DNA of 32,677 nt. Source: a virus. The stretch covers positions 1 to 32,677 of IMG/VR virus record IMGVR_UViG_3300047557_000801, one strand, 5' to 3'. Shown in pieces: positions 10,731 to 28,147 of this stretch. Positions within the stretch are counted from its first letter, which is position 1. Every line of letters starts with the position of its first letter. Made by a program: the position numbers and the translations under genes. The notes under the pieces were generated by a model that saw only the letters and a list, made by a program, of their open reading frames with translations, was not told where the DNA came from and ran no database searches.

Positions 10731-13700
10731 ATGACTACAACCAGCAGACAAAATAATTTAATTTTAAACCAGGACTGGACAAGAATATACCAGACCTTTA
10801 AAAATGCAGACTTTAAATCCTACGACTTTGAAAATCTTCGTAGAGTTATTATCACATATCTGCGTGAAAATTATCCAGAAGATTTTAATGATTATATTGA
10901 AAGTTCCGAATATCTTGCTCTAATCGATGCTATTGCTTTCTTAGGACAAAGTCTAGCTTTCCGCATTGATCTAGCTTCTAGAGAAAATTTTATTGAGCTT
11001 GCCGAAACTAAAGAAAGTGTATTGCGAATAGCTCGCATGTTGTCTTACAACGCCAAGAGAAACGTAGCATCCAGCGGTCTTTTAAAATTTACTTCAGTAA
11101 CAACTACCGAGGATATATTAGATAGCAACGGAAAAAATTTAGCACAGCAGATTATTTCTTGGAATGATCCAACAAATACCGATTGGTTAGAACAGTTCAT
11201 ATTAGTATTAAATGCCGCCATGACAGATAATACAGAATTTGGTCGAAGCCAAGGCAGTGCTACGATTCAAGGAATTCCAACAGAACAATATAGATTTAGA
11301 ACTATAAGTGCTGACGTACCTTTATATTCTTTTACAAAAACTGTAGCAGCCAGAGGAATGACTTTTGAAATAGTTTCTACGGCTTTTAAAAATCGTGAAA
11401 ACATCTATGAAGAACCTCCAGTCCCAGGAAATCAATTAGGATTCGTTTATAAAAATGACGGAACAGGTCCTGGAAGCCCAAATACCGGATTCTTTCTAAT
11501 GTTTAAACAAGGAACTTTAGAATTAGCTGATTTCAGTATAGACGTTCCTACCACAAATGAAAAAATAGCAGTTGATGCGATCAATGTTAATAATGATGAT
11601 GTGTGGTTGTTTTCTTTAAATTCGGCAAATATTCAATTAGAAGAATGGACTAAAGTATCTACATTAGTAGGAAACAATATTGCTTATAACAGTGTTACTC
11701 AAGACATTAGAAACATATATGCTGTGAATACTAAAGTTGATGATACTGTAGATTTAGTATTTGCCGATGGTGTTTATGGAAACTTGCCTCAAGGAGCTTT
11801 CCGTGTATATTACAGAACCAGTAATGGTTTATCATATACAATATATCCTAATGAATTAAGAGGTATTAATATTGGTGTTACCTATCTAAACAAACAAGGT
11901 GTAGAACATACATTAACTATCGGATTGGCATTACAATCGACAGTAGCGAATTCCGCAGCATCTGAGGATATAGAAAATATTAGAACCAATGCTCCTGCAG
12001 TGTACTATACTCAAAATAGAATGATAACTGCTGAAGATTATAATCTTGCTCCGTTGGCAAGCAGTCAAAATATTATTAAAATAAAAGCAATCAATAGAAC
12101 GTCTAGCGGCATCAGCAGAAATTATGATATTATCGATGCTTCGGGAAAATACAGCAGCATCAACATTTTTTGCGACGACGGATATATCTATAAAGAAGAA
12201 ACCGAAGAAACATTAACTTTTAAATTTGATAATAGGATCGACATTATTAATTTTATAAGAAGATCTGTTGAAGCACAATTTACGAACCCAGAAGTTTATA
12301 ATTTTTATTTTACCAAATTTGATAAGATTTTATTCACTGATACTAACACTGTCTGGCAATCAATAACTTCGTCTACTCCTACAGGATATTTTAAAAATAT
12401 TGTAGATAATGCTTTATTAAAAGTTGGATCATATTCTACTAACAGTTTGAAATATCTATTTCCTGATGCTCTTATTAAATTTGTGCCACCGGCAGGGAAA
12501 GCATTTAAAAAAGGTCAACTAGTAAACGTAGATAATTTAGATTCAGAGCAAACGGATAGACTATGGACTAAAGTTATTAGAGTGGTTGGAGACGGAACTA
12601 ATGCCGGTCGGGGTGTATTAGTCAACGGATTAGGACCTATTACATTCAGCGATCAAGTTCCTTCAGGAGCTATTGCATCTAGAATAGTTCCAAGATTTAT
12701 TAATGATTTAACAGCATCTTTAGAAAATGAGATAGTAAATCAGGCTTCTCAAAATTTAAATTTTGGATTAAGATACGATTCCGTGGTTTCTGAATGGAAG
12801 ATCATAACGTCTTCGAATATTGATCTAGTAAGTAATTTCAATCTAGGTAAAGCGGGTGATACAACCAATACCAATGTTGACGCTGCTTGGTTAGTGGCAT
12901 TCGTTAAAGAATTAGATCGATATGTTGTAAGAATAAGAAAACAAAGCTATGTTTTCGGTAGTCTTGCTCAAAATCGTTTTTATTTTGACACCAATGAAAA
13001 GAAATACAATGATCAAGTAGGAAATGTAGTTAAAGACACTGTAAAAATTCTAAGCATAAACACAGATAGTAACGGAATATCAGAATTAAAACAAGATGTT
13101 TCTTTCGAAATCTCAGATACTATCAAATTTGATGACGGATATGAAAGTACCACGGAAATCAAATTATCATTTTTTGATTCAGATGATGACGGTGTGATAG
13201 ATAATCCAGAAGCATTTGAAAAAATCGTCGGAATAGATCAAGACCAGCCAGAAAAAAGATATATCTTTTTTCAAGAAGCAGTTGACGATTACGGAACAAC
13301 AATATATGAATTAATAGATAATTCAGATAATTTAATTTTAATAATAGAAAAAGAATCGTCTATAGATTTTAATGATTCAACAACCTATCCCGACGGTCAA
13401 CTAATTTATTTTTATGATATAGATGAAGACGTTGTAAAACAGGTTAATAGAACAACTAATACATTGGATCTTAAAAGAAATTATAAATCGGTTATTGGCA
13501 GAAGAAATTTAAAATTTCAATATGTACATAATGCCAGCGTAGATAGAAGAATTGATCCTAGTTCTAGCAATATTATAGATCTCTATATGTTAACCAGATC
13601 CTACGACGAAGCGTTTAGAATTTATCTAGCCGGAGGTACTCAAGTTGAACCGGAAGCACCTTCCACTGATAGTTTAAGAACTTCGTTCGGAGGTAACTTA

Positions 13701-14144
13701 GCTAATATCAAATCAATCAGCGACGAAATAATTTACCATCCAGTGAAATATAAAGTACTGTTTGGTATAAATGCAGATCCTAAATTACAGACAACGTTTA
13801 AGGTTGTAAAAAATCCTAATTTGTCTATCAATGACAACGATTTAAAAGTTAGAGTTATTACTGCAATCAATAATTTCTTTGATATTAATAATTGGGATTT
13901 TGGAGATAGATTTTATATGAGCGAGCTTACCACATATATATTAAACTCTACTGCGCCAGATTTAAGTAACATAGTAATAGTTCCTAAACAAACAAATCAG
14001 GTCTTTGGTAGTTTATTTGAGATACAAAGTAGAGCAGATGAAATATTAATTAGTGGAGCCAATGTTGACGATATAGAAATAGTATCAGCGATTACAGCAG
14101 CAGAAATTGGTGCTAGTGTTAATAATGTAGTAACTACAACTTAA
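10731..14144 (+). CDS. 6: Baseplate wedge protein gp6
   Basis: This 1137-residue protein is the main inner wedge ring component. The N-terminus (NADFKSYDFENLRRVIITYL, then ALIDAIAFLGQSLAFRIDL) is the strongly conserved gp6 start. NRMITAEDYNLAP near 430-445 is the baseplate J-type signature. T4 gp6 is 660 residues. The surplus here is a central insertion of several hundred residues, including an EF-hand-like loop at 816-827 (DSDDDGVIDNPE). The C-terminus (about 1000-1137) returns to wedge-type sequence. It is preceded by AAGG 12 bases upstream. A nearby ATG at 10723 is out of frame and closes at once. gp6 dimers link wedges through gp53 and gp7. Confidence 0.9.
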   Translation: MTTTSRQNNLILNQDWTRIYQTFKNADFKSYDFENLRRVIITYLRENYPEDFNDYIESSEYLALIDAIAFLGQSLAFRIDLASRENFIELAETKESVLRIARMLSYNAKRNVASSGLLKFTSVTTTEDILDSNGKNLAQQIISWNDPTNTDWLEQFILVLNAAMTDNTEFGRSQGSATIQGIPTEQYRFRTISADVPLYSFTKTVAARGMTFEIVSTAFKNRENIYEEPPVPGNQLGFVYKNDGTGPGSPNTGFFLMFKQGTLELADFSIDVPTTNEKIAVDAINVNNDDVWLFSLNSANIQLEEWTKVSTLVGNNIAYNSVTQDIRNIYAVNTKVDDTVDLVFADGVYGNLPQGAFRVYYRTSNGLSYTIYPNELRGINIGVTYLNKQGVEHTLTIGLALQSTVANSAASEDIENIRTNAPAVYYTQNRMITAEDYNLAPLASSQNIIKIKAINRTSSGISRNYDIIDASGKYSSINIFCDDGYIYKEETEETLTFKFDNRIDIINFIRRSVEAQFTNPEVYNFYFTKFDKILFTDTNTVWQSITSSTPTGYFKNIVDNALLKVGSYSTNSLKYLFPDALIKFVPPAGKAFKKGQLVNVDNLDSEQTDRLWTKVIRVVGDGTNAGRGVLVNGLGPITFSDQVPSGAIASRIVPRFINDLTASLENEIVNQASQNLNFGLRYDSVVSEWKIITSSNIDLVSNFNLGKAGDTTNTNVDAAWLVAFVKELDRYVVRIRKQSYVFGSLAQNRFYFDTNEKKYNDQVGNVVKDTVKILSINTDSNGISELKQDVSFEISDTIKFDDGYESTTEIKLSFFDSDDDGVIDNPEAFEKIVGIDQDQPEKRYIFFQEAVDDYGTTIYELIDNSDNLILIIEKESSIDFNDSTTYPDGQLIYFYDIDEDVVKQVNRTTNTLDLKRNYKSVIGRRNLKFQYVHNASVDRRIDPSSSNIIDLYMLTRSYDEAFRIYLAGGTQVEPEAPSTDSLRTSFGGNLANIKSISDEIIYHPVKYKVLFGINADPKLQTTFKVVKNPNLSINDNDLKVRVITAINNFFDINNWDFGDRFYMSELTTYILNSTAPDLSNIVIVPKQTNQVFGSLFEIQSRADEILISGANVDDIEIVSAITAAEIGASVNNVVTTT
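13176..13211 (+). other. EF-hand-like calcium loop within gp6
   Basis: Residues 816-827 of gp6 read DSDDDGVIDNPE. Asp at positions 1, 3 and 5, Gly at 6, Ile at 8, Asp at 9 and Glu at 12 fit the 12-residue EF-hand loop exactly. Flanking residues (LSFF before, AFEKIV after) could form short helices or strands. Dockerin or thrombospondin-type calcium loops are alternatives. Confidence 0.55.
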
Positions 14145-14149
14145 AAATT

Positions 14150-17100
14150 ATGGCAAATAAATCTTTTCCTAAAAGCAACTTACCTATTAGAAAATCAGCA
14201 GAACTATTGCCTGTTGTCTTTCAAACAGATGCCAACGATAAATTTTTATCAGGTGTTTTAGATCCACTTATACAGCCCGGGGTCTTAGAAAAGACCACAG
14301 GATTTGTTGGACGTAGATATGGTAAAACTTTCAACGGTAATGATGTTTATCTTGATACTGATCAAACACTAAGAAGCAGATATCAGTTAGAACCTGGTGT
14401 GATCTATAAGAATCATGATAAAATTGAAAATTTTTATGATTACATAGATTTTAAAAATCAATTAAAGTTTTTTGGTAATCTGGACGATAGAGACGATAAA
14501 ATCACCGACCAAGAACATTATACATGGAATCCTCCGATCGATTGGGATAAGTTTATCAACTATAGAGAATATTTCTGGGTACCCAGCGGTCCTCCTAGTA
14601 TTTCGATATTAGGACAGAGTGCTTCGATCACAAGTACCTACAAAGTAGTTTTAAGCGAAACAAATAATTCGTTTATCTTCACACCTGATTCTTATACAAA
14701 TAATCCGACAATAACTCTGTATAGAGGACAAACATATAAGTTTAGAATAAATGCTCCGGGAGAAGGATTTTCAATCAGAACAAACTATGATACTGGATCT
14801 TTGTTATTTCAAACACTTACCTTTTATAGAGCAGGAAGTTTAGTAGTTTATGATGATAAACTATGGAGAGCAAAGCAGGATGTTATGCCCAGCGACGGTA
14901 GTTCAATAACTCTTGACAGCCAAGATTGGGAATATGTAGAGCCTGCATCGTCTGGAGATGCACTTGAGTATAAAAAAGGAATTACAAATAACGGAATTGA
15001 AAATGGAGTTTTAACATTTGTAGTTCCTTACGATGCTCCGGACATTTTATATTATCAAGGACTAATAACAGCAGATGCATTTGGAAGATTTTTAATTGCA
15101 GACATTGAAGAAAACACATTTATTAATGTCGAAAAAGACATTTTAGGAAAAAGCACTTATACTTCAAGTAATGGGATAGAATTATCTAACGGCATGGTTT
15201 TAGAATTTAGGGGTAGTGTTACTCCAGAAAAATATTCTAAAGACACCTGGCTAGTCGAAGGCGTCGGTAATGCAATTACTTTAACAAAATTTTCAGATCT
15301 TATTGTTCCTGTATTAACATCAGATGTTCCTGAGGTTTTATTTGATAATGAAGGGTTTGACACACTGCCGTTCGACGATGCAGCTTCATATCCTACGTAT
15401 AAAGATTATATTACTGTCTCTAGAGACAGCATCGATAGAAACCCATGGAGCAGATACAATAGATGGTTTCATAGATCAGTTTTAGAAAAATCTTATTCAT
15501 TAAGAAATGAAGATTTTTTTGCAACAGAAGATTCTAGAGCTAAAAGACCAATTATAGAATTTTCAGCAAATCTTCAGTTGTTTAATTTTGGAACTACAGC
15601 TAAAGAAACAGTTGATTATGTTGACGACTATACCACTGATGTTTTTTCAAGAATAGAAGGCAGTTCGGGATATAATATCGACGGTGAATTTTTATTTGAA
15701 GGTGCAAGAATTCTTGTTGTCGCAGATAGAGACAGCCTAGCTAATAACAAAATTTATACAGTTACTTTTATAACACATAATAATAATAGACAAATACATC
15801 TAGTAGAATCGTCAGATTCTGTATCTGTTTTAGGTGATTGTGTTTTAGTTCGAAGAGGAAATAAAAATGGAGGAAAGATGTTTCATTTTAATGGAACATC
15901 ATGGATAGTCAGTCAAGAAAAGACGAAAGTTAATCAACCACCATTGTTTGATGCTTTTGATAGTAATGGAATAAGTTTTTCTGATTCCGAATCATATCCT
16001 ACTAGTTCTTTCGTTGGAACAAAGATATTAAGTTATAAATCTGGAAATGGTAGGATAGATAAAGAATTAGGTTTCGCTCTCAGTTATCTTAACATTGATA
16101 ATGTCGGAGATATACAATTCAATTGGGATTGGGACGACGAAATAATTAATTATACCTTAAATAGACTTCCGAAATCTGTAAAAATATCCACAGGTTATTT
16201 TAAAATTAATCCTAATAACACATATAGTAATGGTTGGTTATTAATGGATAATCAATTCTTACAGCCGATTATTGATAGTCAAATAATTGCTACAAATACT
16301 AATACAGTAATTTTTAATTCAATTGACTGGACAAAATTAGATTCAGACCCAATAATCAACATTTATATAAACGATCAAAAATATTTAGGATCTTGGCAAA
16401 GGGACTTAAACTCATTTACATTTTCGACCATATTAAAATCTAATGATGTTGTTACATTGAAAATTATCTGCGACATAGAACCCGATCAAGGATATTATGA
16501 AATTCCGTCAGGATTAGAAAAAAATCCTTTTAACGATTCTTTAAAATCTTTTACTCTAGGCCAAGCAGTTGATCATATAACTACGGCTTTGGAATTTAAT
16601 AACAATATTGTCGGAACAATACCGGGCAATTCTAATCTGAGAGATATTTCGGATTATCAAAAATATGCTAAACGATTTTTAAAACATTCCGGCCTATCGC
16701 CAATATCTGTGATGTTATTATGTGATAAGACACATAATATTATTAAATCTTTGCAATATTCTAAAAAGAGTTATACCGAATTTAAAAATAATTTCTTAGC
16801 AAAAGCAATAGAGATCGCATATAACGATAATATCTCTGATTTTGTAGATGATATCATTAATAGTTTAACAAAGACTAAAGATTTTAATAGTCCGTTTTAT
16901 GACAGTGACATGATAGGTGCAGGTGCTTTTACTAGAATAATTTATGAAGTAGAAGATGTCGGAATCAAAACTTTTTCACTAACAGAAAAATTTGATTTAC
17001 AGACTTTATCTAAAAAAGCAGTTTATGTCTATCTTAATAATAGTCAATTACTAAACACCAAAGATTATGAGTTTAATTCTACATTTGGATTCGTGAGACT

Positions 17101-20100
17101 ATTGATAGATCTAAATGAAGGGGATGTAATCGAAATAAGAGAATATATTTCTACATCTACCAATCATATTCCTCCTACACCTACCTCCTTGGGTCTATAC
17201 AAAAAATATACTCCTTTGAAATTCTTAGACGATACCTATGTAGAACCTAGAGAAGTTATCCAAGGACATGACGGAAGTATTACAGCCGCATTTGGAGATT
17301 TTCGAGATGATTTATTATTAGAATTAGAATATCGAATCTATAATAATATCAAAAAAGAATATGACGAAAAATTATTTGACATCGATAAGATAGTCGGCGG
17401 TTATTATGGTTCGGGTGTATATAAAAAATCTCAACTAGATTCTATCGTTAATCAAGAATTTTTGAAATGGATCCAGAATACAAATATCAATTATACCTTA
17501 AATGAATATTTTGACAATCAGGATTCGTTTACCTATACATATTCTGCGATGTCAGATCCTACCAAAACGCAAACCCTACCGGGCTATTGGAGAGGAGTAT
17601 ATAAATGGTTTTATGATACTGATAGACCGCATCGATGTCCTTGGGAAATGTTAGGTTTCTCAGAAAAACCGTCGTGGTGGAATACTGTATATGGACCGGC
17701 TCCTTATACAAAAAATAATTTAATTTTGTGGGAAGATTTAAGAGACGGCGTTGTAAAACAAGGATCTAGAGCAGGAAGACACGATCGATATAAGAGACCT
17801 AGCTTGTTAGATCATATTCCAGTTGACGACGATGGTAATCTATTAAGTCCTTTAGATTCCGGTCTAGCACAAGATTTTTCATTAATCAATAATAAGGGAC
17901 CATTCGTTCTAGGAGATATTGGACCAGTTGAATATGCATGGCGATCAAGTTCTGAATGGCCATTTGCTGTGACATTGGCTATGTGTTTGATGAAACCGTT
18001 TGAATTTATAACAGATAGTTATGATAGGTCCATTACATATCTGAATAACTTAGAACAGACGGTGAATCTAAACACAAAATTATTTGTAACTAAAGATGAC
18101 ATTTCGTCTAAATCATTAACTGAGCCATCTGTCGGATTAATAAAATATCTTGTGGCTTATATCAAATCTAGAGGAATTTCCGTTGATACAATTTTAGAAA
18201 AAATAAGTAATCTCGACGTAGCATTGTCTCATCGAATGTCTGGATTTGTAGATCAACAACAGCAAAAGTTCTTACTAGATTCAAAGAGCCCAAATTCAAA
18301 AACCAGCAGTATCTATATTCCACCGGAAAATTATGATATAATTTTTAATGTTAGCTCTCCTATAACATCAGTATCTTATAGCGGAGTGATTTTAGAAAAG
18401 ACCGAGGGGGGCTGGGTAGCGACAGGTTATGATGATATAAATCCTTATTTTAATTATTATCAAGCTATGCCGAGTCAGAAAGATCCAGTTATTTCTGTAG
18501 GTGGAGTTAGTGAAACTTTTGTAGATTGGTCAGAAAATAAAAATTATAACAATGGTGTATTAGTTCGATATGCAAGTAATTTTTATCGAGCACTAAAAAC
18601 ACATAACAGTGGATCGGATTTCGATATCGCTAACTGGCAGAAGTTAGGAACCATACCTAAGATTGGTGCTGTCGAAGCATTGAGAAGAAGATCTTTTAAT
18701 ACTTTATCTATTAAAAAATTAAGTTACGGAACTAAATTTACAACCATACAACAGGTAGTTGATTTCTTATTGGGATATGAAAATTACCTTAAATCTGTAG
18801 GATTTAAATTTGACAGATACGATCCAGAAAATCAAACTAGTCAAGATTGGTTGAGTTCTTGTAAAGAATTCATGTTTTGGACTAAACATAATTGGGAAAT
18901 CGGATCTTTAATTTCTCTAAGTCCGTCAGCACAAAAAGTCGATATTTCGATTCCTGTGGGCGTGGCTGATAATATTTTAGATGGATTTTATGATTATCAG
19001 GTATTAAAAGGAGATGGAAAACCACTTCAGCCTAGATTTATTAATGTCAATAGAAGTTTTCAAAATGTTTCTATAGAGACAGTTAATACCACCGATGGAA
19101 TATTTTATTTAAAATTGTATTATGTTTTAAAAGAACATATTACGATTTTTGATGATAGAACAGTTTTTAACGACATAATATACGATAAGACTACCGGATA
19201 TCGTCAAGGACGTATTAAAGTTCAGGGATTCAGAACTGTAGATTGGGACGGAGATTACACCAGCCCAGGATTCTTGTTTGATAATGTCAATATTGCTGTA
19301 TGGCAACCTTTTACCGATTATCGATTAGGAGACATCGTTGCATACAAATCTTATAATTGGGTAAGTCTAAAAAATCAATTAGGTACCGAAACTTTCGACG
19401 ATACCTTCTGGAGTAAATTAGATACAACACCTATAAAACAATTAATTCCTAATTTTGATTATAAGATTAATCAGTTCTCAGATTATTTTGAAGTATCATC
19501 GGAAGGAATTAATCAAAGCCAGAGAGATTTGGCAAGACATACTATAGGATACCAACAAAGAGATTATCTACAAAACCTTGCAGAAGATCCAGTAAGTCAA
19601 TTTCAATTATATCAGGGATTTATTAGAGAAAAAGGATCAGCTAATTCAATATCAAAAATCTTTGGAAAGTTAAGTCGTTCCGGTAGTGATAGTATCATAT
19701 TAAATGAAGAATGGGCCTTTTTAGTTGGACGCATGGGAGGCACTGATCAACAAACTGAAATAGAAATTCAATTAGAAAAAAATAAATTTGAATTAAATCC
19801 TCAATTATTTTTAGTTGAGTCTAATGAAGAATTAATCGATAGAGATCAAAATTATAGATTAACTTCTAGAGATTTTACGATAGCGCCGATTCCCTATGTT
19901 GCAGATATAATTCCTAAAACATTAGAAATTCAGCCAACAATGACTGCTGGATATGTAAGCAGCGGGCAATATCAACACGTTATTTCTTCAATATCTGATT
20001 TATCAACATTAGATATTAATACTGTTAAAGAAAATGATCATATTTGGGTTACTTTTTATAGAGATACCTGGACAGTTTTAAGAGTAAATGAATCTTTATT

Positions 20101-23100
20101 TTTATATGTAACTAATATCAATAGATTAGATGAAACAACAGTAGAAATAACATTCAACAGATCTCACAATTTTGCTGTTGGGGATTATATAGGATTTAGA
20201 GAAATTCCTAACTTAATCGGATTTTATGAAGTAGTTTCAATTTCTAATTCGATAATAAATCTCAGAGTTGATGCTGAAATAGATGATCCGATTTTAGATT
20301 CAAGCACCGGAATAAATCCTCAGGTGATAACAAATTGTAGATTTGATAATTATCAGTCTATAAATGAGGAACAGGCAGCTCTATATAATAATGGTTCTAG
20401 AATTTTCTTAGACAACAACGGAGAAAGTTTATGGGAAGTTGTAGAGAAAAATAAACAGTATTCTGCCAAATTAATTTCTGATTATGGAACGACCACACCG
20501 TTGAATACAGGTGAAAAAGTTTTATATGATAATGTAAACAAGCATATAATAACCAGTATACCCGGATCCGCAGTTGTGGTTGTTTATGTTGAGGGATCAT
20601 CTGGGTTATTATTAAAAGAAATTATTTCTCCTCCTAATGGTTACTATAACAGTGTAATAGGATCTTTTGGTAGAAAAATGGCAGTTACTGCCGACGGAAG
20701 ATTTTTGATTATTGGTTCTCCATCTGCCAGCGGAGTAACTAGCAATTTTAGAGGAGAGTGGGCCACGGATGTTGCCTACCAGCAGGATGACATAGTTTTA
20801 TATGGCGGAAGATTATGGAAAGCTAAAAATGCCAATACTGTCATAGGCGACGGCAGCACAGATTTAGCAGTAAACACTGACGATTGGGAATCAGCTACAA
20901 ATATTCCTGCGCAGACGTCTGGAAGAGACCCAGGTCTATACCAGCAGGGCATGATAACGATTTATGAATTTGCCAATGGTCGATATACCCCAACCGCTTC
21001 TTTTTTAAGTCCAAGACCTTCGGATAATGAGCAATTTGGATCAGAGATCGTTGTGTCTTCTAGCGGATCTAATTATTATTTGGCAGTATCGGCTGTGGGA
21101 TCTTACAACAGCACAGGACGAGTTTATCTCTATAAATTTGACGGACAAAATTGGAATCATCTAGAAAATAATAGATATAAAGGAATTTATAATCCTGTAA
21201 CTACCTATTACGCAGGCGACATAGTGTGGCAGGCAGCTCAAGATCCTATAGTAGAAGGAGTTAAAGGAAACCTATGGACTTCCTTAGACGATTCTACATC
21301 TGATGGTAGCACTATCACTCTTGAATCAATGAGTTGGTTAAAAGTCAGCGATATATCTACCAATTGTTCTTTACCTACTAATATTGCTGTCGAAGATGAC
21401 GGTTCTACTTTAGAATTTGCATATACAGGATTAATTTCTGACATGCAGATGGCCGAAATAATCAAACAGGGAGATCAATTCGGATTTTCCATGGCAATGA
21501 ACAATGACGGTAGTTTATTAGTCATAGGCGCCCCCTACAGCGATGGACAATATTTTGCAAATTATAGAGGGGTGTGGAGATCTGATGTTGAATATGTAGA
21601 AGGCGAAGTGGTCAGACATTTGGGATCTGTCGGAGAATCTTATCAATATTATAGATTAGGAGATGCTTATCTAGGACCAGATTCTACATACAGAAGTTAT
21701 AATGAGGACCCTTCGGATAGTGAAAACTGGGTACAGATCAGTGACAGTACTACACAGTCTTCCGGAAAGATATTTGTATATAAAAGATCGGCCGGAGATG
21801 TTTATGTATTAACACAAATGATCAATGCCGGATCTATCAGCTCCTTTACAGATATAGATTCTGGACTGATAATTAGTACCGGCGACCAATTTGGATTTTC
21901 GATGGATTTGGATTCTACCGGAAATGTTTTAGTAGTTTCTAGTCCTAAAGCAGATATTAATTTTCAAGATCAGGGATCTGTTTACGTTCTGGGATTAGAT
22001 ACGGCCACTACCGAATTCAGAGTTAAACAAAGATTAGAAAGTTTTGAACAATACCCAAATGAATTTTTTGGTTATGGTGTATCTATTAGTCCTAACGGAA
22101 TCAAGATTGCAGTAGGAGCACGTAATACTTCAAATAATTATCCTATCAACTTTGATTTATTGTCCGGAACTATTTTTGATAGTGCCAGAACATCGTTCCA
22201 TGTAAAACAAGGTTATACAGGTGGTGTTTATATATTTGATAAGAAAGATGAAAAGTTTTTCTTAACAGAAAAATTACAAGAAGTATTTTCTCCTAATGAA
22301 TCCTTTGGTTACAGTGTCGATTGTGTAGGTTCTTATGTAGTAGTTGGATCGCCATTTTATAGGGTTCCTGTACTTCATGCAGATAATACATTTGCATTTG
22401 AAGGTCCGAATATAGGAAACGTAAGATTGTTTAAAAAGGACGATAATGTTTCGTCTTGGAATACATTGATCGCTCAACAACCTGTTATAGATATTAGAAA
22501 AATTGCAGCGATTGAATTATACGATAATATAAAAAATGTTAAAATACAAGACATTGATTATATTGATCATGCTAAATTTAAAATTCTAAACGTAGCAGAA
22601 CAAGAAATTAAATTTAAAACTCCTTACGATCCTGCGATATATTCCGTAGGAAATGACGAAGTAGTTGTAGATTCTGCAGTCGCATGGTATGAAAAAAATG
22701 TAGGAAGACTATGGTGGAATATTTCTACAGCTAAATGGTTCTATGCAGAACAAAAAGATTATTCTTATAGAGCAGGAAACTGGAATCAATTAGTAGAAGG
22801 TGCCAGCATCGATGTATACGAATGGGTTGAATCTGTTCTGTTGCCTAGCGAATGGGCCGCTTTAGCTGATACCAATGAAGGAATTGCAGAAGGAATATCT
22901 GGTCAGCCTCTTTATCCCAACGACGATGTATACAGCTTTAAACAATTTTTTAATGCAACTACAGGAGCGATTTCGGAAACAAAATATTATTATTGGGTAA
23001 AATCTAAGACAGTTGTACCTACAAACATGCCAGGAAGAACTCGAGCATCTTCAGAAGTTGCTTCATTGATATCTAATCCTGCAGGAACTGGTACAGCTTT

Positions 23101-26100
23101 TATTGCATTGATTGATTCAAATAAATTTTTAGCTTATAATTTTGAATCTATATTATCATCGGATACTGCACTTATTAATTTTAGATTTAAAAATGACCTA
23201 AAAAATTCTACTCCGATACATAATGAATATCAGTTGTTAACTGAAGGTGTAGCAGATAGCGTTCCTATTGAAAAATTAGAAACAAAATGGATCGACAGTT
23301 TGATTGGTATCGATTCTGCAGGAAACCGTGTTCCTGCAACTAATCTTCCAGCAAAACAAAAATACGGTGTTAATTTTAGACCCAGACAAACAATGTTTGT
23401 TGATAGATTATCGGCTTTAAAATTAGCTATTACTAACATCAATTCAGTTTTAGAAAAAGAACCATTCTCGACAATTATCGATTTTACAAATTTAAATTTA
23501 ATAGATGATATTCCGGATCAAATATTAAATCTATATGATGCTGAAGTTGACACAGAGATAGATCTATCAACAGTAGGAACTGTCAGAACAAAGAGAGCGG
23601 TTTTACAGGCTAATATAGTTAATGGCGAATTAGATACTATAGATATTATCGATCCGGGATTCGGATATAAAGTAGTCCCTAGCTTAGAATTAGAAGGCGA
23701 CGGCACCGGAGCTAAAGCATCAGTAACAATAGATAATCAAGGAAGAATATCTACGGTTACGGTAACAGCAAGAGGAAAAAAATATAGTGTATTGTCAGCT
23801 ACTATAAGATATTTCTCAGTTCTAGTTAGAAGCGATTCAACCATCAACGGATTTTGGAGTATATATTCTTGGGATGATGTGCGTAAAGTATTTTTTAGAA
23901 GCCAGTCTCAAGCATTTGATACTACCAAGTATTGGTCTTACATTGATTGGTGGAAAGAAGGATATGATGAAAACACTAGAGTTATTATAGAACTTGACAG
24001 CATCTTCGATGAACCCAAATTTATCATCCTAATAGGGGACCTTATAAGAGTTAAAGAATATGGTGCCGGAGGATGGGCAGTTTTTGAAAAGATATCCGAT
24101 TCTGGAGAAACATTCTCAGACAGATTTATTTTAGTAGGAAGAAAAGACGGAACTATTCAATTAAGCACTTCTCTTTATGATACAACGATATTTGGTATAG
24201 GATTTGACAATACTCAAACATATGATAATACCACCTATGATATTGAAAATGCTATAGAATTAAGAAATATATTTAAAGCAGTAAAACAAGATATTTTTAT
24301 CGGTAATTACACAGTCGAGTGGAACAAGTTATTCTTTTCTAGTATTAGATATGTTTTAGCAGAACAACAATATGTAGATTGGGTCTTTAAGACTAGTTTC
24401 TTAAATGCTACACACAACATAGGCAGTTTTGAACAAAAAGTAAATTATAAAAATGATAATCTTGAAAGCTATCAAGATTACATCGATGAAGTCAAACCAT
24501 TTAGAACTACAGTTCGAGAATATGTAAGTAGATATGACAATTTAGAGCCTTACAGATCTTCAGTAGCTGATTTTGATCTGCCTCCGAAATTCTCCAAAGT
24601 TGACGGAAAGATAGTTCCGATAACTTTTGAAAGATCTGAATTACAACAGTATCCTTGGAAATGGTGGTCGGATAACAACGGATATTCTGTTGTAGCAATC
24701 ACAGTATATGATAGAGGAGCCCAATACACCACTCCTCCAAAAGTTCTCATAGAAGGAGACGGCACTGGAGCAGTAGCTAAGGCGTTTATATCGAATGGAC
24801 GAGTTTCTGGAATTACAATGCTAGACGGCGGCCGCGGCTATACCAAAGCACCCACAATCACATTAGTTGGCGGGAACCCATCTAATTCTATACAGGCTAA
24901 AGCGGCAGCAGTTTTAGGAGATACAAAAGTAAGAACTTTTGATCTCAGTATTAAATTTGATAGAACTAATAAAACTGGAGATTATCAAAATTATACTCAG
25001 TCGCAATCATTCATAGCTACTGGATTTACAGCAGTTTTTGAACTTAATTATGCTCCTACACGAGACAAAACTAAGATCTCTATATTAAAAAATGATCAAT
25101 TGGTTTTAAACAGCGATTATTCTATTAGTTTATATTACAGTTCGGCAGACAGCTATTCTTTATTAAGAGGAAAATTAATTTTTAATCAAGCACCTAATGC
25201 TGGAGATATAATAGCCGTAGAATACGAAAAAAATATAGAATTATTAAATGCTGTTAATAGAATAGATCGATTCTATTCTCCTGCATCAGGGATGATAGGA
25301 AAAGAATTAAATCAGTTAATGACAGGTGTAGATTTTGGAGGTGTATTAATTCAAGGAACTACATTTGACGTAACTGGCGGTTGGGATGCTCTTCCTTGGT
25401 TCACAGATAACTGGGATAGTGTTGAATCAAGTTCAGATTATTATTATGTAGTAAACGTAGAAGATTTGATAGATTCAAGCAAAATATATTCTGCCGGGGA
25501 GATAATCGATTACAAAGGAAAATTATATCAGGCACTGAAACAAAACGTTGATGGTAGCGGAGATATTGTATTACCGACAGTAAACGCCGGTTGGGAAAAT
25601 TATTGGGAAATATTAAAAGTAACATTGCCTTTTGTTCCTGCTATAGGTCAAGAGATTACGATTTATTGGAAAAAACTCAGTCAAAATTATCCAAGGAATA
25701 TCGATACCATCGGAGATCCTTTAGTTAATCCAACAGTCATACTGAACAAAGAAATAGATTTTTTACCTCAAATTAGAATTGACGATCCGGCTTTTAACGA
25801 TCAAGTAGATTCTTCGACTAGCATAAATCCGGAAGCACAGATGCCAACATTTGTCGGTGACGGTGTAACCAATAGAATTGAAATTGGTTCATATGTCTCA
25901 GCTAGAACGGGAGACATTATAATATTCCGTCCGATAGAGAGTGACGGTTCTGTAACTATTACAGATGAAAATCTTGTTGATACACAAATAAGTGGCGGAT
26001 CCCTATCAGCGATCGATAGCATTTATGTTAGTGCTACAGGAACCACTGCAGAAGAAATAGTTATTAACGGAGGAAAATTTGTTGAACCCGATCACGTACC

Positions 26101-28147
26101 TGCTCCTGAAGAAAATGTTCCAGGACAGGTATTAGATAGTGTTAGCATCAAAGTTTATCAGAGCACCGTCTCGGGGGCCGCTGCATTACAGTCTAAGATA
26201 ATCGAATCAGACGGTCTAACATTAATCTATGATATAGGTCAGAAAGTTTTAGAAAATAAATCTGTAATCGTATATGTCAATAAAATTAAGAAAACGTTTA
26301 GTGTTGACTACAATTTAGATCTACAAAATTACAAAGTTGAATTTAATTTAGCTCCGAGTGCTGGCACATTAATAGAAATATTATCTGTTGGTATAGGCGG
26401 TTTAGGCATCCTAGACTATCAAGAGTTTGTAGCCGATGGCACTACTAATTTATTTTTAACTAATGCTAATTATGACAATACAGCTACGGTATTTGTAACT
26501 ATCAATGGAGAATACATCGATACTGGATTTAGAAGCAGCACAGATATTGTTGATGCAGTAGGGAAGACTTTAATCGAATTCGGTTTCAATCCTGCAGAAG
26601 GTGATATCGTAAAAATTGTTTGTTTAGAAGCAGCGTCTGACGTAGATTCGTCTGGTTTAGCTATAATTAAAGTGAATACACAGACAGTATATTTTGAAGG
26701 AAGTACAAGAAGTTTTGATCTTGATAATTTTGTAGATTTGTCTAGAGGTTCAGCTAGAAACTCGATGATAGTCGAGGTAGATGGCAAAATATTGAAAGGT
26801 TCAGATACAACTTATGCAATTTATAACGGAACAAATAATGTCTTTACTTTAGGAATAGATCCTTTAGAATCTGCCGGATCGATATTACCAAGCAACATCA
26901 GAGTTTTTGTTAATAACTTAGAAAGAACATTTATTACTGATTATGTATTTGATGGTCCTACAAAAGTACTAACGATATATCCTTCGGTATTATCTATCGG
27001 CGATATAATAAAAATACAGAACGACTTAAGAGCAGAATACAGAATTGTTGGTAACAATTTAGTAATCAATAATGATGTTCCAATGACATCTGTTGATGAA
27101 ACAGATAATGTTAAAATAGATATCACGTGGTTCAGCGAATATCCGTCATTTGATGTTATCGCAGATCAAAAATCTGGAGGCAAAGTACAATATCAATTAT
27201 CGAGACCACCTATATCTGCAAGTTATGTGTGGGTCTATAAAAATGGAAATAGATTAACGCAAGATCAAGATTACTATGTTTCTATACCCAGAAATGTTTT
27301 ATATCTAAATGTTCCATCTACTCCGGCTGATGACATTAAAACAATATCATTTACCGCAGATATTTTTAGATTGCCTAGTGCCTATGAAATACACAAAGAT
27401 ATGTTGAATGTTTTCCACTATAAGAGATTTGCTAAAGGAGAAGTGACACTTTCGTCAGCATTAAATTACTACGATACAGTAATAAATGTCAGCGATTCTT
27501 CTAGTTTAACAAAGCCAATCTCTAATAGAAATATTCCTGGAATAATTTGGATTTCTGGTGAACGCATAGAGTATATGACCATAAACGGTAATACTTTAGG
27601 GCAGTTAAGAAGAGGAACACAAGGTACTTCAATAGGGGAAGTTTATCCCGAAGGATCGGCGGTGGTTGATATCGGCTACGATGAAACGATACCTTATAAT
27701 GAAACACAGGATAGACAAGACTTTGTCAGCGATGGTAGTACACTGTTAGTTGGACCTCTAGACTTTGTACCTTTAAAATCTTCTAGAAATTCCTGGATCA
27801 GAAATTCAATACCAGCAGAATACGGTCCTTGCGATCAGGTTGAAATATTTGCAGCAGGTCGCAGATTGCGAAAAGATCCTATCGATATATGGATTGAAAA
27901 TAATGGCTCATCTAGCCCGCAGGCAGATGAAACTTTAGAAGCAGAATTTTCTGTTAACGGAACCAGTACATATATACGCCTAACAGATCCATTACCTGCA
28001 GGAACTAGAATTACTGTAATTAAAAGAACAGGGAAAATTTGGTACGAACGAGGTGAATCTACAGCATCTAATGGACGCTCGTTAGTTGATAGCGACACGC
28101 CTATAGCGAAATTCATAGCTCAAAAGTCCACTAGTTTACCTGAATAA
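14150..28147 (+). CDS. Giant 4665-residue baseplate protein in gp7 position
   Basis: This single uninterrupted frame fills the gp7 position after gp6. T4 gp7 is only 1032 residues. The first 160 residues (SNLPIRKSAELLPVVFQT, then GFVGRRYGKTFNGNDVYLDT) and RPHRCPWEMLGF near 1159-1170 look like conserved wedge sequence of marine T4-like phages. Further on are at least seven CBM5/12-like modules (about 223-265, 1459-1501, 1716-1759, 2202-2251, 2343-2398, 2473-2532, 3775-3823). An FG-GAP_2-like beta-propeller spans about 2168-2770. Two GDGTGA repeats lie at 3169-3213 and 3521-3575, with fibre-type beta repeats from about 3620 to the end. The start lies 5 bases after the gp6 stop and has no visible Shine-Dalgarno, so coupled translation is likely. 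Very large cyanophage proteins of this kind have sometimes been called VrlC, from memory. A wedge-plus-receptor-binding role is inferred. Confidence 0.8.
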   Translation: MANKSFPKSNLPIRKSAELLPVVFQTDANDKFLSGVLDPLIQPGVLEKTTGFVGRRYGKTFNGNDVYLDTDQTLRSRYQLEPGVIYKNHDKIENFYDYIDFKNQLKFFGNLDDRDDKITDQEHYTWNPPIDWDKFINYREYFWVPSGPPSISILGQSASITSTYKVVLSETNNSFIFTPDSYTNNPTITLYRGQTYKFRINAPGEGFSIRTNYDTGSLLFQTLTFYRAGSLVVYDDKLWRAKQDVMPSDGSSITLDSQDWEYVEPASSGDALEYKKGITNNGIENGVLTFVVPYDAPDILYYQGLITADAFGRFLIADIEENTFINVEKDILGKSTYTSSNGIELSNGMVLEFRGSVTPEKYSKDTWLVEGVGNAITLTKFSDLIVPVLTSDVPEVLFDNEGFDTLPFDDAASYPTYKDYITVSRDSIDRNPWSRYNRWFHRSVLEKSYSLRNEDFFATEDSRAKRPIIEFSANLQLFNFGTTAKETVDYVDDYTTDVFSRIEGSSGYNIDGEFLFEGARILVVADRDSLANNKIYTVTFITHNNNRQIHLVESSDSVSVLGDCVLVRRGNKNGGKMFHFNGTSWIVSQEKTKVNQPPLFDAFDSNGISFSDSESYPTSSFVGTKILSYKSGNGRIDKELGFALSYLNIDNVGDIQFNWDWDDEIINYTLNRLPKSVKISTGYFKINPNNTYSNGWLLMDNQFLQPIIDSQIIATNTNTVIFNSIDWTKLDSDPIINIYINDQKYLGSWQRDLNSFTFSTILKSNDVVTLKIICDIEPDQGYYEIPSGLEKNPFNDSLKSFTLGQAVDHITTALEFNNNIVGTIPGNSNLRDISDYQKYAKRFLKHSGLSPISVMLLCDKTHNIIKSLQYSKKSYTEFKNNFLAKAIEIAYNDNISDFVDDIINSLTKTKDFNSPFYDSDMIGAGAFTRIIYEVEDVGIKTFSLTEKFDLQTLSKKAVYVYLNNSQLLNTKDYEFNSTFGFVRLLIDLNEGDVIEIREYISTSTNHIPPTPTSLGLYKKYTPLKFLDDTYVEPREVIQGHDGSITAAFGDFRDDLLLELEYRIYNNIKKEYDEKLFDIDKIVGGYYGSGVYKKSQLDSIVNQEFLKWIQNTNINYTLNEYFDNQDSFTYTYSAMSDPTKTQTLPGYWRGVYKWFYDTDRPHRCPWEMLGFSEKPSWWNTVYGPAPYTKNNLILWEDLRDGVVKQGSRAGRHDRYKRPSLLDHIPVDDDGNLLSPLDSGLAQDFSLINNKGPFVLGDIGPVEYAWRSSSEWPFAVTLAMCLMKPFEFITDSYDRSITYLNNLEQTVNLNTKLFVTKDDISSKSLTEPSVGLIKYLVAYIKSRGISVDTILEKISNLDVALSHRMSGFVDQQQQKFLLDSKSPNSKTSSIYIPPENYDIIFNVSSPITSVSYSGVILEKTEGGWVATGYDDINPYFNYYQAMPSQKDPVISVGGVSETFVDWSENKNYNNGVLVRYASNFYRALKTHNSGSDFDIANWQKLGTIPKIGAVEALRRRSFNTLSIKKLSYGTKFTTIQQVVDFLLGYENYLKSVGFKFDRYDPENQTSQDWLSSCKEFMFWTKHNWEIGSLISLSPSAQKVDISIPVGVADNILDGFYDYQVLKGDGKPLQPRFINVNRSFQNVSIETVNTTDGIFYLKLYYVLKEHITIFDDRTVFNDIIYDKTTGYRQGRIKVQGFRTVDWDGDYTSPGFLFDNVNIAVWQPFTDYRLGDIVAYKSYNWVSLKNQLGTETFDDTFWSKLDTTPIKQLIPNFDYKINQFSDYFEVSSEGINQSQRDLARHTIGYQQRDYLQNLAEDPVSQFQLYQGFIREKGSANSISKIFGKLSRSGSDSIILNEEWAFLVGRMGGTDQQTEIEIQLEKNKFELNPQLFLVESNEELIDRDQNYRLTSRDFTIAPIPYVADIIPKTLEIQPTMTAGYVSSGQYQHVISSISDLSTLDINTVKENDHIWVTFYRDTWTVLRVNESLFLYVTNINRLDETTVEITFNRSHNFAVGDYIGFREIPNLIGFYEVVSISNSIINLRVDAEIDDPILDSSTGINPQVITNCRFDNYQSINEEQAALYNNGSRIFLDNNGESLWEVVEKNKQYSAKLISDYGTTTPLNTGEKVLYDNVNKHIITSIPGSAVVVVYVEGSSGLLLKEIISPPNGYYNSVIGSFGRKMAVTADGRFLIIGSPSASGVTSNFRGEWATDVAYQQDDIVLYGGRLWKAKNANTVIGDGSTDLAVNTDDWESATNIPAQTSGRDPGLYQQGMITIYEFANGRYTPTASFLSPRPSDNEQFGSEIVVSSSGSNYYLAVSAVGSYNSTGRVYLYKFDGQNWNHLENNRYKGIYNPVTTYYAGDIVWQAAQDPIVEGVKGNLWTSLDDSTSDGSTITLESMSWLKVSDISTNCSLPTNIAVEDDGSTLEFAYTGLISDMQMAEIIKQGDQFGFSMAMNNDGSLLVIGAPYSDGQYFANYRGVWRSDVEYVEGEVVRHLGSVGESYQYYRLGDAYLGPDSTYRSYNEDPSDSENWVQISDSTTQSSGKIFVYKRSAGDVYVLTQMINAGSISSFTDIDSGLIISTGDQFGFSMDLDSTGNVLVVSSPKADINFQDQGSVYVLGLDTATTEFRVKQRLESFEQYPNEFFGYGVSISPNGIKIAVGARNTSNNYPINFDLLSGTIFDSARTSFHVKQGYTGGVYIFDKKDEKFFLTEKLQEVFSPNESFGYSVDCVGSYVVVGSPFYRVPVLHADNTFAFEGPNIGNVRLFKKDDNVSSWNTLIAQQPVIDIRKIAAIELYDNIKNVKIQDIDYIDHAKFKILNVAEQEIKFKTPYDPAIYSVGNDEVVVDSAVAWYEKNVGRLWWNISTAKWFYAEQKDYSYRAGNWNQLVEGASIDVYEWVESVLLPSEWAALADTNEGIAEGISGQPLYPNDDVYSFKQFFNATTGAISETKYYYWVKSKTVVPTNMPGRTRASSEVASLISNPAGTGTAFIALIDSNKFLAYNFESILSSDTALINFRFKNDLKNSTPIHNEYQLLTEGVADSVPIEKLETKWIDSLIGIDSAGNRVPATNLPAKQKYGVNFRPRQTMFVDRLSALKLAITNINSVLEKEPFSTIIDFTNLNLIDDIPDQILNLYDAEVDTEIDLSTVGTVRTKRAVLQANIVNGELDTIDIIDPGFGYKVVPSLELEGDGTGAKASVTIDNQGRISTVTVTARGKKYSVLSATIRYFSVLVRSDSTINGFWSIYSWDDVRKVFFRSQSQAFDTTKYWSYIDWWKEGYDENTRVIIELDSIFDEPKFIILIGDLIRVKEYGAGGWAVFEKISDSGETFSDRFILVGRKDGTIQLSTSLYDTTIFGIGFDNTQTYDNTTYDIENAIELRNIFKAVKQDIFIGNYTVEWNKLFFSSIRYVLAEQQYVDWVFKTSFLNATHNIGSFEQKVNYKNDNLESYQDYIDEVKPFRTTVREYVSRYDNLEPYRSSVADFDLPPKFSKVDGKIVPITFERSELQQYPWKWWSDNNGYSVVAITVYDRGAQYTTPPKVLIEGDGTGAVAKAFISNGRVSGITMLDGGRGYTKAPTITLVGGNPSNSIQAKAAAVLGDTKVRTFDLSIKFDRTNKTGDYQNYTQSQSFIATGFTAVFELNYAPTRDKTKISILKNDQLVLNSDYSISLYYSSADSYSLLRGKLIFNQAPNAGDIIAVEYEKNIELLNAVNRIDRFYSPASGMIGKELNQLMTGVDFGGVLIQGTTFDVTGGWDALPWFTDNWDSVESSSDYYYVVNVEDLIDSSKIYSAGEIIDYKGKLYQALKQNVDGSGDIVLPTVNAGWENYWEILKVTLPFVPAIGQEITIYWKKLSQNYPRNIDTIGDPLVNPTVILNKEIDFLPQIRIDDPAFNDQVDSSTSINPEAQMPTFVGDGVTNRIEIGSYVSARTGDIIIFRPIESDGSVTITDENLVDTQISGGSLSAIDSIYVSATGTTAEEIVINGGKFVEPDHVPAPEENVPGQVLDSVSIKVYQSTVSGAAALQSKIIESDGLTLIYDIGQKVLENKSVIVYVNKIKKTFSVDYNLDLQNYKVEFNLAPSAGTLIEILSVGIGGLGILDYQEFVADGTTNLFLTNANYDNTATVFVTINGEYIDTGFRSSTDIVDAVGKTLIEFGFNPAEGDIVKIVCLEAASDVDSSGLAIIKVNTQTVYFEGSTRSFDLDNFVDLSRGSARNSMIVEVDGKILKGSDTTYAIYNGTNNVFTLGIDPLESAGSILPSNIRVFVNNLERTFITDYVFDGPTKVLTIYPSVLSIGDIIKIQNDLRAEYRIVGNNLVINNDVPMTSVDETDNVKIDITWFSEYPSFDVIADQKSGGKVQYQLSRPPISASYVWVYKNGNRLTQDQDYYVSIPRNVLYLNVPSTPADDIKTISFTADIFRLPSAYEIHKDMLNVFHYKRFAKGEVTLSSALNYYDTVINVSDSSSLTKPISNRNIPGIIWISGERIEYMTINGNTLGQLRRGTQGTSIGEVYPEGSAVVDIGYDETIPYNETQDRQDFVSDGSTLLVGPLDFVPLKSSRNSWIRNSIPAEYGPCDQVEIFAAGRRLRKDPIDIWIENNGSSSPQADETLEAEFSVNGTSTYIRLTDPLPAGTRITVIKRTGKIWYERGESTASNGRSLVDSDTPIAKFIAQKSTSLPE
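20652..22460 (+). repeat. FG-GAP_2-like beta-propeller repeats
   Basis: Within the giant protein six units share FG-x-x-(3-4 residues)-DG-x-x-hydrophobic-VG/VS. They begin near residues 2168 (SFGRKMAVTADGRFLIIGSP), 2293 (QFGSEIVVSSSGS), 2441 (QFGFSMAMNNDGSLLVIGAP), 2578 (QFGFSMDLDSTGNVLVVSSP), 2637 (FFGYGVSISPNGIKIAVGA) and 2716 (SFGYSVDCVGSYVVVGSP). Most units end in a Gly-Val-Tyr-Ile/Val-Phe-like strand. This is the FG-GAP_2 pattern of integrin-type propellers. The first three spacings are about 125-148 residues because a separate module sits in each. Confidence 0.75.
20753..21746 (+). repeat. Three CBM5/12-like modules inserted between propeller blades
   Basis: Residues about 2202-2251 (WATDVAYQQDDIVLYGGRLW, ending DDWES), 2343-2398 (YNPVTTYYAGDIVWQ, ending MSWLKVS) and 2473-2532 (WRSDVEYVEGEVVRH, ending ENWVQIS) fit the pattern aromatic-x(5)-Y-x(2)-G/D-D/E-x-V, then an aromatic, then a final Trp. 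That is the layout of short CBM5/12-like chitin-binding-type modules. Each falls between two FG-GAP blades. Confidence 0.6.
23654..24875 (+). repeat. Two G-x-G-Y / GDGTGA repeat units
   Basis: Residues 3169-3213 (PGFGYKVVPSLELEGDGTGA and following) and 3521-3575 (GAQYTTPPKVLIEGDGTGA, then GGRGYTKAPTITLVGG) share a Gly-x-x-Tyr, PP/VP, GDGTGA, Gly-Arg-Ile/Val-Ser layout. This is a beta-rich repeat seen in many phage fibre and baseplate proteins. The two copies are separated by about 310 residues of unrelated sequence. Confidence 0.65.

Follow-up and report, generated by a model that had tools for sequence, protein, structure and literature searches.

A giant baseplate-cluster protein of metagenome-derived phages with a predicted seven-bladed FG-GAP propeller bearing CBM5/12-like modules

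Genomic context of the giant protein

The window, by which we mean the whole stretch of DNA analyzed, is a 32.7-kb virus fragment, IMG/VR record IMGVR_UViG_3300047557_000801 (32,677 nucleotides). Its genes run in the order baseplate hub/lysozyme, gp25-like, gp6-like, and then a giant open reading frame (ORF), the order characteristic of a gp7-like gene. The gp6-like baseplate wedge gene (positions 10731 to 14144, plus strand, as are all features below) matches phrog_10646 with an E value of 3.7e-286. The giant ORF lies directly 3' of it (14150 to 28147) and encodes a protein of 4,665 amino acids that matches phrog_10938 with an E value of 0. By synteny, the giant protein occupies the gp7 position of T4-like phages. 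Its equivalence to T4 gp7 is drawn from synteny, since a phmmer search of the giant protein against PDB sequences matched no solved chain; the gp6-like protein likewise gave no match in that search. Phages Phosso, Atu_ph07, PA5oct, SCTP-2, GAP32, and PHA46 each encode an orthologue, their giant virion protein, and a baseplate wedge gene precedes it in Phosso, Atu_ph07, PA5oct, GAP32, and PHA46. The PA5oct orthologue carries an ESI-MS/MS flag in its database record. Two further stretches of the giant protein match other families, residues 3145 to 3220 (window 23582 to 23809) matching phrog_438 (baseplate wedge) and residues 3510 to 3577 (24677 to 24880) matching phrog_460 (head closure); both matches probably stem from a common G.GY..P.V repeat.

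A predicted closed propeller of seven blades

The FG-GAP_2 profile is matched in the window with 71 bits against a curated cut-off of 23 (E value, 7e-20) and is present in 55 of 55 aligned sequences. FG motifs occur at residues 2173, 2296, 2444, 2581, 2640, and 2719, with spacings of 123, 148, 137, 59, and 79 residues. The initial annotation had described six FG-GAP_2-like blades with the same last four spacings and a first spacing of 125. The six motifs are there, but an AlphaFold2 model of residues 2085 to 2800 shows seven blades, each four-stranded as read from its secondary structure; the blade that had been missed is N-terminal, degenerate, and without an FG motif. The model was built from the alignment of 55 sequences (pLDDT, 79.7; pTM, 0.78) and supersedes an earlier, poor prediction made with 23 sequences (pLDDT, 63.8). 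The predicted propeller spans from about residue 2118 (nucleotide 20501) to about residues 2780 to 2785 (nucleotide ∼22500), so that the interval first proposed, 20652 to 22460, cut off blade 1.

Blade 1 (20501 to 20665; residues 2118 to 2172) is the degenerate one, its four strands being predicted at residues 2124 to 2159. Blade 2 (20666 to 21025; residues 2173 to 2292) carries module 1 (20741 to 20917; residues ∼2198 to 2256) in its B-C loop. Blade 3 (21026 to 21466; residues 2293 to 2439) carries module 2 (21170 to 21361; residues ∼2341 to 2404) after strand D, followed by a conserved, partly helical linker of 35 residues (21362 to 21466; residues 2405 to 2439; mean pairwise identity, 0.61), of which residues 2411 to 2427 have a pLDDT below 50. 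Blade 4 (21467 to 21880; residues 2440 to 2577) carries module 3 (21557 to 21757; residues ∼2470 to 2536), again in a B-C loop. The model then gives blade 5 (21881 to 22054; residues 2578 to 2635), blade 6 with a B-C loop of 33 residues (22055 to 22291; residues 2636 to 2714), and blade 7 (22292 to 22489; residues 2715 to 2780). The module regions have pLDDT values of about 53 to 90, lower than most blades.

The inserted segments, earlier placed at residues 2202 to 2251, 2343 to 2398, and 2473 to 2532, are borne out at the limits given above. Successive blades do bear them, but because of the extra N-terminal blade without an FG motif these are blades 2, 3, and 4 rather than the first ones. 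That the modules account for the additional spacing holds in part: subtracting them leaves 64, 84, 70, 59, and 79 residues, but the second gap contains the 35-residue linker as well as module 2.

Structural comparison gave the integrin alphaL headpiece (5e6u; Z score, 26.8; root mean square deviation [rmsd], 3.1; 361 residues) and nvWrap-T, a symmetric propeller of seven blades (7bie; Z score, 24.9; rmsd, 2.3; 276 of 286 residues aligned). Matches to closed seven-bladed rings cover residues 2102 to 2767. Since they extend over the whole ring, the ring is closed in the model, supporting the earlier proposal of a propeller whose blades close, here as a predicted ring of seven.

Long loops and module exchange on one face

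In the secondary structure of the model, the A-B and C-D loops, fourteen in all, measure 2 to 6 residues, against 4 to 109 residues for the B-C and D-A loops (Mann-Whitney P value, 5e-5). Module 2 takes a D-A position because the strand that precedes it makes a turn of four residues with strand C. With modules 1 and 3 in B-C loops, general propeller topology would have all three modules open on one face, in agreement with the initial annotation. Strand D of blade 3 is ambiguous, however, and module 2 could lie on the opposite (C-D) face, a placement with which the relative L036 is compatible. Among relatives, 61 of 62 large indels, counted per sequence and not per event, fall in B-C or D-A stretches.

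These relatives came from three scans of viral contigs, which yielded 186 full-length propeller segments (overlapping loci from repeat scans included), 87 of them distinct and 54 remaining once near-duplicates were removed at 92% identity. When 50,697 phage records were searched with the propeller by tblastn, no match appeared at 1e-5, only stray weak ones at E values up to 1, and a pattern scan of GTDB genomes found no relative of the propeller, so no host is assigned. Among the records searched, all those with the propeller sequence were viral contigs of metagenomic origin.

A tree computed from the blades only requires no fewer than four changes in module 2 and three in module 3. The relative L036 has mostly lost module 2 and has gained 86 amino acids after residue 2574; counting that insertion, the gains and losses amount to at least eight events. 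Such comparisons between relatives support the view that the inserted segments are gained and lost as units. Together with strand sets that stand apart from the blades in the model, this agrees with the original description of the inserts as separate domains. Other domains are nested within the modules. In some relatives module 2 contains GTTDF/GTTDW-type domains of 53 to 57 amino acids, in others a distinct domain of 77 amino acids, and module 3 contains a GTTDW-type domain in L105, L142, and L161. One could read this as a receptor head nested at three levels, in which loops of one face are sockets for CBM-like modules, the modules are sockets for further domains, and swaps change the adhesion target. 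We consider that improbable.

Partial kinship of the modules to CBM5/12

Scanned alone against the Pfam CBM_5_12 profile, as had been proposed earlier, module 1 gave 25.9 bits (E value, 1e-5) and module 3 a weak 14.5 bits, but module 2 gave no match, and all fall below the curated cut-off of 26.2. One relative's module 3 alone reached 19.4 bits, and 53 of the 55 sequences have a CBM_5_12 match somewhere in the segment (best E value, 1.7e-11). A profile made from these modules scored 67.8, 41.8, and 26.7 bits for modules 1, 2, and 3; the scores are partly circular, because the underlying alignment included module 1 of the window and the relatives' versions of all three modules. Similarity to CBM5/12 and chitinase modules is mostly limited to the N-terminal half of the module, for most solved entries roughly positions 1 to 35 of 53. 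The solved matches include Cis13 (All3316) of the Anabaena contractile injection system, which is the best, chitinase modules, and a weak one to residues 29 to 58 of the Milano tailspike. The last match falls inside residues 1 to 175 of the tailspike, its N-terminal tail-binding module according to its authors (PMC10811340).

The likeness to CBM5/12 (PF02839, chitin-binding type 3) lies in the N-terminal half, a Y..GdiV.y.g.lw.a hairpin. The difference is that here a GDGST-type segment without tryptophan replaces the C-terminal half with its usual binding aromatics. Characterized CBM5/12 modules have their sugar-binding aromatics in the C-terminal half. The propeller modules do not show the aromatics expected there: tryptophan is absent from that half of module 1 in 53 of 55 sequences and from that of module 2 in all 55, and module 3 mostly lacks it. 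The kinship appears real but partial. Conservation is 0.50 for the modules and 0.54 for the blades, suggesting that modules evolve at blade-like rates.

About four further CBM5/12-like modules lie in the giant protein outside the propeller, among them one at residues 220 to 266 (14807 to 14947; own-profile i-E value, 1.8e-13) and one after the propeller at residues 3777 to 3817 (25478 to 25600; Pfam E value, 0.0055; own-profile i-E value, 2e-5). Another, at residues 1459 to 1502 in the conserved core (18524 to 18655), exceeds the Pfam cut-off with 26.9 bits and is common to PA5oct, Phosso, SCTP-2, and Atu_ph07, that is, to orthologues without the propeller. Elsewhere, the relatives L206 and L207 (IMG/VR records of L204 and L052) have long fiber-like ORFs, about 40 to 50 kb from the giant baseplate gene, with seven to eight CBM5/12-like modules in array, some above the Pfam cut-off.

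The initial annotation had proposed a multivalent glycan-binding head. Its modules would bind host-surface or particle-bound polysaccharide directly, weak reversible adhesion being multiplied by the six-fold baseplate. The CBM_5_12 similarity, the chitinase modules among the solved matches, the presence of several modules adjacent on one face, and the module arrays in the fiber-like ORFs of two relatives are in keeping with this. However, the half-module matches, the missing C-terminal tryptophan, and the occurrence of the same module type in the conserved core and in baseplate anchors speak against it, and the conservation of the modules does not show receptor-driven divergence. Glycan binding by the modules is possible but not supported, and we hold the head as proposed to be unlikely.

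The same observations could instead be taken to indicate passive architecture, the propeller and modules serving as spacers that widen the wedge rim and contact neighboring subunits, with no changing partner. CBM-like modules are indeed found along the whole giant protein, conserved core included, those of the propeller are conserved like the blades, and their solved relatives include Cis13, a protein of a contractile injection system. The repeated gains and losses on one face nevertheless suggest a face free of a fixed partner, and we regard a purely passive role as rather doubtful.

A variable site in the giant protein

The propeller lies between two conserved blocks, the left one extending to about residues 1900 to 2075 and the right one beginning at about residues 2765 to 2790. 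The phrog_10938 giants of Atu_ph07, Phosso, PA5oct, SCTP-2, GAP32, and PHA46 are the same gene with the flanking blocks kept, but they have other sequence at the site, 207 to 1,516 amino acids, and a propeller profile detected no propeller in any of these proteins of six cultured phages. FG-GAP_2 is absent from the complete records of PA5oct, SCTP-2, GAP32, and PHA46; in those of Phosso and Atu_ph07 it is found elsewhere. The Sinorhizobium phage Phosso (L041; PV764938.1) has 42 FG-GAP_2 matches at 48 to 69 kb and 92 to 94 kb, most of them in two ORFs of 3,182 and 3,702 amino acids distant from the baseplate giant.

Two candidates for the site were rejected. A bare ancestral propeller was considered for SCTP-2, PA5oct, GAP32, and PHA46 because the site there is about 200 to 320 amino acids long, and neither the propeller profile nor Pfam gave a blade signal. 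In the Salicola phage SCTP-2 (L044), a segment at residues ∼2110 to 2360 of the giant protein that resembles a LamG jelly roll occupies the site of the window's propeller, and no profile confirmed that reading. Since the outgroups have a site of variable length and no propeller, the propeller is one occupant of a variable site, specific to its lineage. Its gain in the lineage of the window, rather than loss in the others, is the simpler reading of the sequences.

A proposed contact platform and its known counterparts

The anatomy of the propeller is confirmed and is richer than first described, its ring and one-face arrangement being those of the predicted model. The explanation that we favor, with somewhat more confidence than doubt, is a peripheral platform for contact or docking on a giant baseplate protein of one lineage of uncultured large T4-like phages. 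The predicted seven-bladed FG-GAP propeller sits at a site of the gp7-position protein that varies in length and content between phages. Its ring would be a rigid scaffold, and the B-C and D-A loops of one face would be sockets into which CBM5/12-like modules were inserted and other small domains are still entering, sometimes within the modules. The decorated face would bind a partner, a tail fiber or other virion protein more likely than sugar, and exchange of modules would alter that partner. We infer the position of the propeller on the virion, its orientation, and its binding of a partner. A contact platform is favored because the long loops and 61 of the 62 large indels are confined to the B-C/D-A face, and because module 2 changed state at least four times and module 3 at least three, with the 86-residue insertion of L036 in addition. 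Its place on the baseplate is supported by the location of the gene in the baseplate cluster, and its restriction to one lineage by the absence of the propeller from the six outgroup giants.

Baseplate wedge proteins are usually seen as conserved machinery, and here a wedge-position protein bears a domain scaffold with module gain and loss on one face. The relatives are a natural swap set with which to probe what is bound at the outer rim of a large-phage baseplate.

Searches of a largely non-subscription literature for baseplate proteins of phages with FG-GAP, propeller, or CBM domains turned up no account of such an architecture. The best structural match, the integrin alpha propeller, is likewise built of seven FG-GAP-type blades with a domain inserted in a propeller connection, the alphaI domain lying between blades 2 and 3 (PMC3192720), and the nesting of domain in domain seen here parallels that insertion. 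The integrin has a single vWA domain where the propeller of the window has three small modules, and a beta subunit where none is known for the latter. The strict integrin type has an FG-GAP/Cage motif in all seven blades (PMC3192720), against six FG motifs here, one blade being without; the calcium-binding DxDxDG motif of integrin-type A-B loops (PMC3192720) does not occur in residues 2085 to 2800. The nozzle of the Kuravirus SU10 is a seven-bladed propeller of a phage tail with a fiber-dock loop on blade 1 and, between blades 2 and 3, inserted domains (PMC9509320). It differs in being a podovirus nozzle with Ig-like inserts, and it is likened here by its published description and not by sequence. 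The docking role is argued by analogy with this nozzle and with the alphaI insertion. We favor it because the nozzle is a precedent for a tail propeller with a fiber-dock loop (PMC9509320), and because Cis13 and the tail-binding portion of the Milano tailspike contain relatives of the modules.
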